From contig JAAVZU010000093.1 of the NCBI GenBank assembly GCA_022791815.1, positions 1 through 64,000 of the forward strand: DNA of 64,000 bases, written 5' to 3'. Below are positions 55,957 through 63,905 of the stretch, piece after piece; the first letter of the stretch is position 1, and each line of letters begins with the position of its first letter. The translations under genes were made by a program, and so were the position numbers. Source of the stretch: Lachnospiraceae bacterium (GTDB lineage: Bacteria > Bacillota > Clostridia > Lachnospirales > Lachnospiraceae). The notes under the pieces are model-generated. The model had not been told where the DNA came from and made no database searches. It saw only the letters and a program-made list of their open reading frames with translations.

Positions 55957-56013
55957 GATAAATTTTTGCAAAAAATGTATCTATAAAAATACAAGGATTT
56001 AGGCAAATATTCA

Positions 56014-56042
56014 TTGCTTTTTTTTGAAATCGTAGTTATACT
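56014..56042 (+). promoter_or_regulatory. Promoter of pflB-pflA
   Basis: TTGCTT (56014-56019), 17-base spacer, TATACT (56037-56042). It implies a 5' leader of about 265 nt. Confidence 0.65.
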
Positions 56043-56071
56043 ATAGATAGTACAAGATATCCATTAGAAAG

Positions 56072-56216
56072 ACACAGAAGTTAGATTGAATCTGTGTAGA
56101 AGGATGGGTAAAACTGTACCAAGTGTCGGACACGTGACCCCTTAGTAATACAGAGGTGTCAGGCTCCTAAGGGATCAGGAGCTTATGGTGAAAGAATAAC
56201 CGGTTAGAACAGTTTT
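56072..56216 (+). ncRNA. Structured 5' leader of pflB
   Basis: ACACAG/CTGTGT hairpin (56072-56097). An outer stem AAAACTGT (56110-56117) with ACAGTTTT (56209-56216) encloses CCCTTAG (56139-56145) / CTAAGGG (56167-56173), and GTGTC (56123-56127 or 56156-56160) that can pair with GACAC (56129-56133). GCTCC/GGAGC (56163-56167 and 56178-56182) competes with the CTAAGGG pairing, as in a switch. It does not fit the ZTP (pfl) or other riboswitches I know. It could also be an inserted REP-type palindromic repeat. Confidence 0.5.
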
Positions 56217-56315
56217 GTAACTGGAAATGTTCATATCTAGTAAATGATTGGATATGAATAGTCAATATGTTTTGTAACATGAATCACATATATGATCAAA
56301 GGAGGAATTACTACA

Positions 56316-58574
56316 ATGGCAATGTTAGAAAGTCAGGCATGGGAAGGATTTGAAGGAAGACAGTGGAAAGAAGAAATCAACGTTAGAGATTTTATTCAGA
56401 AGAACTATACACCATATACTGGTGACGAGTCATTCTTGGCAGGTCCTACAGATGCTACCAATAAATTATGGGGAGCATTACAGAAATTACAAAAAGAAGA
56501 GAGAGCAAAAGGCGGAGTTCTTGATATGGATACCGATATTGTTTCTTCTTTGACCTCACATGGACCAGGATATATTGATGAATCTCTAAAAGATTTAGAG
56601 CAGATTGTTGGTCTTCAGACAGATAAGCCTCTTAAGAGAGCATTCATGCCTTATGGTGGTATCAATATGGCAAAACAGTCATGTGAAATGTATGGATACA
56701 CACCAAACCCAGAACTTATTAAAATCTTTACAGAATATCATAAAACACACAATCAGGCAGTATTTGATGCTTATACACCAGAGATGAGAGCTATCCGTAA
56801 GAATAAGATCGTAACAGGTCTTCCAGATACTTATGGTAGAGGACGTATCGTAGGTGACTACAGAAGAGTTGCTCTTTATGGTATTGATACTCTTATTCAG
56901 GAGAAAGAAAAAGATAAAGCAAATTGCGGATGTGGTGTTATGACAGATGACATCATCCGTCAAAGAGAAGAACTTCAGATGCAGATTAATGCATTGAAGG
57001 GAATGAAAGAAATGGCTCAGATTTATGGATATGATATTTCTAAGCCAGCAACAAATGCAAAAGAAGCTATTCAGTGGACATATTTTGGATACTTAGCTGC
57101 AATCAAGACTCAGAATGGAGCAGCTATGAGTATTGGACGTGTTACAACATTCTTAGATATCTATATTGAAAGAGACTTAAAGAATGGTGTTATCACAGAA
57201 GAAGAAGCACAGGAACTTGTTGACCACATGACAATGAAATTCAGAATGGTTAAGTTTGCTCGTATCCAGTCTTACAATGAATTATTCTCAGGAGATCCAG
57301 TATGGGCTACTTTAGACCTTGCAGGTATTGGTGTAGATGGTCGTCCATTGGTAACAAAGACAGACTTCCGTTTCTTACACACATTAGAGAACATGGGACC
57401 TTCACCAGAGCCTAACATTACAGTACTTTACTCTTCTGCATTACCAGAAGCGTTCAAGCAGTACTCTGCTAAGATTTCTATTTTAACATCATCAGTACAG
57501 TACGAGAATGATGATGCTATGAAGCCAGTATGGGGCGATGATTACGCAATCTGCTGTTGTGTATCTGCAACACAGACTGGTAAGGAAATGCAGTTCTTTG
57601 GAGCTAGAGCAAATCTTGCTAAATGTTTATTGTACGCTATCAATGGTGGTGTAGATGAAAAGAGCAAGACACAGGTAGGTCCTGCATATCAGCCAATTAC
57701 TTCTGAGTATTTAGATTATGATGAAGTAATTAAGAAATATGATGTAATGATGGATTGGTTAGCAGGAGCTTATGTAAATGTATTGAACTTGATTCAGTAT
57801 ATGCATGATAAATATTACTATGAAGCAGCACAGCTTGCTTTAATTGATACAGAAGTTCGTAGAACATTCGCAACAGGTATTGCAGGTTTCTCTCATGTAA
57901 TTGACTCTTTATCAGCAATTAAATATGCAAAAGTTAAGACAGTTAGAGATGAAAATGGTCTTGCAGTAGATTACGAGATTGAAGGAGACTTCCCTCGTTA
58001 TGGTAACGATGATGACAGAGCAGATGAAATCGGTGTATGGTTGCTTAAGACATTCCTTGAGAAAGTTAAGAAAAACCACACATACCGTAATTCTGAGCCT
58101 ACAACATCTATCCTTACAATTACATCTAACGTAGTGTATGGTAAAGCTACCGGAGCTATGCCTGATGGACGTAAGGCTGGAGAACCATTATCACCAGGAG
58201 CTAACCCAAGCTACGGTGCAGAGAAGAATGGTTTAGTTGCATCATTGAACTCATTAACAAAACTTCCTTATGAGTGGGCATTAGATGGTATTTCTAATAC
58301 TCAGACAATCAACCCAAGTGCATTAGGAAATAATGATGAAGATCGTAAGAATAACTTAGTGCAGGTTATGGATGGTTACTTTGACCAAGGTGCACATCAC
58401 TTAAATGTAAATGTATTCGGAAAAGAAAAACTTATTGACGCTATGGAACATCCAGAAAAAGAAGAATATGCTAACTTCACTATCCGTGTATCAGGATATG
58501 CAGTTAAGTTTATTGACTTAACAAAGGAACAGCAGATGGATGTTATCGCTAGAACATGTCATGGAGAGCTTTAA
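56316..58574 (+). CDS. pflB: Formate C-acetyltransferase (pyruvate formate-lyase)
   Basis: 752 residues. A glycyl radical enzyme converting pyruvate and CoA to acetyl-CoA and formate. Active-site cysteines lie in [20 protein letters not shown] (Cys413-415) and the radical glycine is Gly727 in [12 protein letters not shown] 56316 with AAGGAGG is preferred over ATG 56292, which precedes that site. Codon choice (for example frequent CGT and GTT/ACA) is more selective than in neighbouring genes, as in strongly expressed genes. The activase gene follows after 3 bases. Confidence 0.97.
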
Positions 58575-58577
58575 TTC

Positions 58578-59324
58578 ATGAACGAACCTGTTGTAGGTAG
58601 AATTCACTCTATAGAGAGTTTTGGTTCGGCAGATGGACCTGGAGTAAGATATATTATCTTTCTCCAGGGATGCCGAATGAGATGTAAATATTGTCATAAT
58701 CCGGATACATGGGCGTCGCAGAAATACGAAAGCCAGACATCAGAAGAAGTGCTAAAGAAGGCGTTAAGATACAAAACCTATTGGGGTAAGAATGGTGGAA
58801 TCACTGTAAGTGGTGGTGAAGCGTTATTACAAATTGATTTTTTAATTGATTTATTCCAGAGAGCAAAAGAAAAAGGAGTGCATACTACATTAGACACTTC
58901 TGGTAATCCTTTTACAAGAGAAGGTGAGTTCTTTGAGAAGTTTCAAAGGTTGATGGAAGTTACTGATTTGTTTATGCTGGATATTAAGCACATAGATTCA
59001 GTAAGTCATAAAGATTTGACAGGGCAGCCAAATGAGAATATCCTTGATATGGCAAGATATCTATCAGAGCAGAAGAAAGATATGTGGATACGTCATGTGT
59101 TAGTGCCAGGCTATACAGATTCAGAAGAACAGTTGAAGGCATTACAAGCTTTTATCAAGACTTTAGATACTGTAAAGCGGGTGGAGGTATTACCATATCA
59201 TACCCTTGGAGTCTTTAAATGGAAAGAGTTAGGTATTCCTTATGGATTAGAAGGAGTTCCAACACCAGATCAGGAACAAATTGATTTAGCTAATAAAATT
59301 TTAGAAACCAAGAGTTATTTATAA
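58578..59324 (+). CDS. pflA: Pyruvate formate-lyase activating enzyme
   Basis: 248 residues. Radical SAM enzyme with the cluster motif Cys32-x3-Cys36-x2-Cys39 (GCRMRCKYCHNPDTW) and the GGE-type motif VSGGEALLQ. It installs the glycyl radical on PflB. Length matches the family. The start is 3 bases after the pflB stop, so the pair is one operon, with a clear terminator after it. Confidence 0.96.
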   Translation: MNEPVVGRIHSIESFGSADGPGVRYIIFLQGCRMRCKYCHNPDTWASQKYESQTSEEVLKKALRYKTYWGKNGGITVSGGEALLQIDFLIDLFQRAKEKGVHTTLDTSGNPFTREGEFFEKFQRLMEVTDLFMLDIKHIDSVSHKDLTGQPNENILDMARYLSEQKKDMWIRHVLVPGYTDSEEQLKALQAFIKTLDTVKRVEVLPYHTLGVFKWKELGIPYGLEGVPTPDQEQIDLANKILETKSYL

Positions 59325-63722: not shown

Positions 63723-63821
63723 AAGTTTAAAGTATAAACATATAATTAACTGTTTGTATTGGAATGCAGACAGTAAACTACATATTATTAATTAAAACAC
63801 AGAAAAATTAGAATTTCGTGT

Positions 63822-63905
63822 TGAAAGGCAAAGCAGGTGAAAGCCTGTGACGCAAAACTAAAGGGTCTACGTTTAACAACTTGACAGCCAGTTGCAATTG
63901 ATAGG
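63822..63905 (+). ncRNA. Cyclic di-GMP-I (GEMM) riboswitch
   Basis: Contains the conserved core: AAAGGCAAAGCAGGTGAAAG then CCTGTGACGCAAAACTAAAG, GGTCTACG, and the second hairpin CAACTTGACAGCCAGTTG. The GAAA-type tetraloop, the GACGCAAA joining strand and the AGCC in the second stem are the hallmarks of the class that binds c-di-GMP. An intrinsic terminator follows, so control is by termination. The regulated gene lies past the window. Confidence 0.88.

Follow-up and report, generated by a model that had tools for sequence, protein, structure and literature searches.

A clade-restricted structured leader upstream of pflB in a Lachnospiraceae bacterium

What does a long, folded RNA leader do in front of a key fermentation gene when it matches no known riboswitch? 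The question is raised by a 64,000-nt stretch of the genome of a Lachnospiraceae bacterium (contig JAAVZU010000093.1, positions 1 to 64,000; hereafter the window), in which the pyruvate formate-lyase gene pflB, with its start codon ATG at 56316, is preceded by a leader of ~265 nt (56050-56315). An earlier, sequence-only reading had described this leader as long, structured and unlike known riboswitches, and had seen in it either the mutually exclusive folds of a switch or an inserted palindrome. That observation was real in part: the layout of the leader is conserved in three species and matches no Rfam family, while the switch found no support and the palindrome was rejected. Our best explanation, which we hold tentatively, is that the leader may be a lineage-specific structured 5′ untranslated region (UTR) of the pflB-pflA mRNA, acting in cis without a ligand to set the stability and output of pflBA.

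Architecture and inheritance of the leader

Within its own genome (G000; draft completeness 96.9%), the leader is single-copy according to BLAST, pattern and covariance-model searches, and it is always located at pflB where found. Our sample of the genus comprised seven genomes, three of which carry the leader: besides the window's own, the same element precedes pflB in two congeners, in one of them 90% identical (G002) and in the other strongly diverged (G006). The predicted fold is a chain of hairpins, consisting of a P1 domain followed by P2 to P6, with these features and folding z-scores:

56050-56119, plus strand: P1 domain, with a 5-bp stem (GTACA/TGTAC), an 8-bp stem (56058-56065/56103-56110) and a hairpin (56072-56078/56091-56097)
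56123-56133, plus strand: P2, a small hairpin (GTGT/ACAC) with identical pairs in three species
56135-56161, plus strand: P3, a hairpin (z -2.0 in the window, -1.7 in G006)
56162-56183, plus strand: P4, a hairpin (GGCTCC/GGAGCT) with pair probability 0.91-1.0
56200-56224, plus strand: P5, a hairpin (CCGGTTA/TAACTGG; z -2.7 in the window, -4.9 in G006)
56228-56260, plus strand: P6, a hairpin (z -6.0 in the window, -3.7 in G006)
56259-56280, plus strand: conserved tail, TAGTCAA(T/G)ATGTTTTGTAACA, with one differing base among three species

Taking the window's own minimum-energy fold as the structure under comparison, we found that 24 substitutions separate the G000 and G002 leaders, of which 12 fall in paired columns; nine of these keep a standard pair and three break it, while random placement breaks a mean of 8.3 pairs (P about 0.008). 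None of 200 column shuffles folds as well as the three-row alignment of the leaders (z -4.1). Folded block by block, the diverged G006 leader has hairpins at the window's positions, clearly so for P1, P5 and P6. The P1 domain scores z -4.3 in the window and -3.2 in G006, and all three of its G002 substitutions keep pairs. Read from the sequences, P5 is replaced in G006 by TCTATTG/CAATGGA at the same place, and P6 has its inner pairs replaced with the outer pairs kept. In the other hairpins, two one-sided G002 changes in P3 keep their pairs, P2 has a single one-sided change and no covariation among the three species, and the G006 hairpin at the position of P4 is not stable above shuffles (z -0.4). 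We place little weight on the higher score of a structure-aware over a sequence-only model for G006 (34.5 vs 19.6 bits), because part of the alignment that the structure model itself produces is out of register.

Several observations weigh against our best explanation. The leader's single-sequence folding z is -2.6 against its own shuffles (2 of 200), and that of G002 is only -0.7; 250-nt regions upstream of 92 pflB genes have a mean z of -2.15, and since the window leader ranks 46th among them, its overall folding energy is ordinary and by itself proves nothing. Aligned by sequence, G000 and G006 alone do not fold significantly (z -1.3): their hairpin loops differ in length, which makes the alignment slip. 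The comparison rests on three sequences, two of them close, and between G000 and G006 the leader diverges faster than the four-fold sites of pflB (74% identical). A consensus scan listed, in place of the promoter preferred below, another candidate, TTGAAA-16-GATAGT at 56024-56051; its use would leave part of the outermost 5-bp stem out of the transcript.

The ordinary folding energy and the fast divergence are also what transcribed filler might show, that is, a leader that exists because the promoter merely lies far upstream, with hairpins present by inheritance or chance and without function; unrelated leaders of similar length elsewhere in the genus point the same way. Because the leader evolves faster than the four-fold sites, plain filler keeps a place in the argument. 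Against it stand the pairs kept beyond chance, several G006 hairpins that are significant at the window's positions, and the 22-nt tail, which is nearly invariant across the three species, and we consider filler fairly unlikely.

Another proposal is that the leader is an inserted repetitive extragenic palindrome (REP)-like or other mobile element, for which the palindromic look of the word GTGTCGGACACGTGACC speaks. This idea fails because the leader occurs once in the genome as assembled (96.9% complete), and three species have moreover inherited the leader in the same position. As a REP/RAYT candidate the 17-base word was rejected, with one exact site and one three-mismatch site genome-wide against 5 for the reversed control. 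We regard such an origin as scarcely credible.

Beyond these three species, a covariance-model scan of 397 family and 392 order genomes yielded no convincing match to the leader; the best E-value was 0.01 (L142), covering 50 bases of the model, and L143 reached 0.07. Two further matches were rejected on their positions, one (L138, E 0.05) falling in the space that separates a LacI-type regulator from a divergent gene, and one (L139, E 0.18) within a long open frame. Among relatives, the leader stands before pflB in G002 and G006, and the rest of the genus and the ~790 sampled family and order genomes lack it.

Does the leader sense anything?

No Rfam family matched the leader of the window at gathering score, and none matched those of G002 and G006. 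The window's sole match is a c-di-GMP-I riboswitch at 63817-63899, after ftsH (62 bits vs a gathering score of 35), whose downstream gene lies past the window end. The ZTP/'pfl' riboswitch is known to control some pfl genes (PMC7266159; PMC10085676) and, like the present leader, is a structured RNA able to precede them, but the pflB leader has a longer, different layout of consecutive hairpins. Even at E 10 the family (RF01750) does not match the leader, and the seven genus genomes yielded no match either.

All the elements on which the switch idea was built are present, including the 8-bp stem, the hairpin, the strings CCCTTAG/CTAAGGG, GCTCC/GGAGC and GTGTC/GACAC, and a 13-codon frame. The competition between them is weak. 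Pairing of CCCTTAG with CTAAGGG is ~4.4 kcal/mol worse than P3 and P4 together and is broken in G002 (CCCTCGG), and the second GTGTC/GACAC pairing has a probability of ~0 in the window RNA and 0.34 in G002. There is no terminator within the leader, and the nearest one belongs to the upstream gene. In ensembles that include coding sequence, the Shine-Dalgarno (SD) sequence is left mostly open in all three species (unpaired probability 0.62-0.72); full-length folds sometimes pair arms of P3 or P4 with it. We therefore see no expression platform competing with an aptamer in the terminator, SD and competing-pair checks, and in place of the broadly conserved aptamer core that generally marks metabolite riboswitches there is conservation in three species of one genus. 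A riboswitch reading of the leader is unsupported, though it keeps a small probability.

Sensing could take a broader form, as a riboswitch for some ligand or as the binding site of a small RNA or regulatory protein that affects the translation or decay of pflBA. Conserved stretches amid changing stems would fit this, namely AGAAG(T/C)TAG(A/G)TT in the P1 loop, TCCTAA near P4 and the tail before the SD, as would the weak alternative folds and the standing of pfl genes as riboswitch targets (PMC7266159). The missing Rfam family, the unconserved and costlier alternative pairings, the open SD without a terminator, and the confinement to a small clade, unlike metabolite riboswitches, make a sensing leader distinctly unlikely. 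The boldest version, in which the leader would be the first of a new class of cis-regulatory RNA that senses the state of fermentation (formate, pyruvate, acetyl-CoA or redox) to tune pyruvate formate-lyase, with a scaffold that evolves fast and a small core (P1 loop AGAAGYTAGRTT and GTCAAKATGTTTTGTAACA tail) that is conserved, is an improbable speculation.

The 13-codon frame (56104-56145; peptide MGKTVPSVGHVTP) would allow attenuation by a leader peptide, and in G006 a frame opens at nearly the same ATG. Lack of conservation defeats this hint: G002 lacks the stop, so that its frame runs longer, and the G006 peptide is entirely different. The ATG has no properly spaced SD before it and no terminator follows, leaving attenuation of this kind very hard to credit.

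Probable promoter, downstream genes and a possible role in mRNA stability

The following features flank the leader. Scores for the two proteins are given with the curated NCBIfam cut-offs:

55976-55993, strand not assigned: palindrome-like TGTATCTATAAAAATACA, a possible operator upstream of the promoter, read from sequence
56014-56042, plus strand: probable promoter TTGCTT-17-TATACT, with the -10 matching consensus at 5/6 positions and the -35 at 3/6 only
56300-56305, plus strand: pflB SD, AGGAGG, with mean unpaired probability as given above
56316-58574, plus strand: pflB, formate C-acetyltransferase (TIGR01255, 1158 bits, cut-off 994)
58578-59324, plus strand: pflA, activating enzyme, 3 bases past pflB (TIGR02493, 318 bits, cut-off 232)

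The promoter-like pair is kept in G002 and G006, and would place the start of transcription near 56046-56050 from a sigma-70-like promoter. The P1 domain would then probably begin at the 5′ end of the transcript or within a few nucleotides of it; its 5′-proximal position depends on this putative start, and its outer 5 bp have a probability of ~0.23 in the window RNA. Operators in the DNA surrounding the promoter are the probable site of on/off control of pflBA. In the pflB upstream regions of L012-L126, TGTATACA words are found repeatedly close to promoters and leaders, exactly in 11 of 92 regions and in none of the shuffles, which suggests a shared DNA operator of a pfl regulator. The TGTATCTATAAAAATACA palindrome, which has two differences in G002 and is weaker in G006, is possibly a local version of this operator.

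For the leader itself we infer the start site, protection from decay and an effect on output. By prediction, and in keeping with the conserved layout, the RNA would fold into a 5′-terminal stem domain, then a row of hairpins, then the tail and an open ribosome-binding site. The terminal stem and the hairpin chain may slow attack from the 5′ end on a highly needed message, and the open, strong ribosome-binding site may give steady pflBA output. Stem-bearing 5′ leaders are known stabilisers of Gram-positive mRNAs (ermC, aprE and others), and occluded 5′ ends together with a strong SD are common determinants of long-lived leaders (PMC3997798). The pflB leader resembles those of ermC, aprE and cryIIIA in its 5′-proximal stem and strong, open SD, but those stabilisers were tested experimentally, whereas the pflB leader, with its ~265 nt and six hairpin blocks, is a putative one. 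A second likeness is to Acetobacterium bakii, whose acetogenesis genes, also part of central anaerobic metabolism, have long 5′ UTRs that fold stably and show no clear attenuation (PMC6239172); these belong to other genes and another organism, have a median length near 90 nt, and are likened here by description.

Elsewhere in the genus, G005, G004 and G001 carry hairpin-rich pflB leaders of 200-330 nt that are unrelated in sequence ('type B'), so that all six pflB loci found have a hairpin-rich leader of 200-330 nt; no pflB was found in the seventh genome (83% complete). Such unrelated long leaders in sister species fit a need for structure over one specific ligand pocket. By eye, two type B leaders sit downstream of an apparent lactate dehydrogenase gene. 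Type B leaders have no Rfam match at gathering score, and a DNA search of 299 family genomes returned short weak matches only. They share a core, AATTCTGG...GTAACT (L015, L016, L017). The G005 leader (L015) also holds, ~150-80 bases upstream of the start of pflB, a nearly perfect 26-bp hairpin (GGTTCTATATGTGTAAG...) that looks like an inserted palindrome.

As a sequence finding, the pflB leader is modest, a clade-restricted, uncatalogued structured 5′ UTR with no demonstrated switch. If it does stabilise or tune pflBA, then in Lachnospiraceae-type bacteria a long RNA leader would set a key fermentation enzyme post-transcriptionally, and such a leader would be replaced rather than conserved between species.
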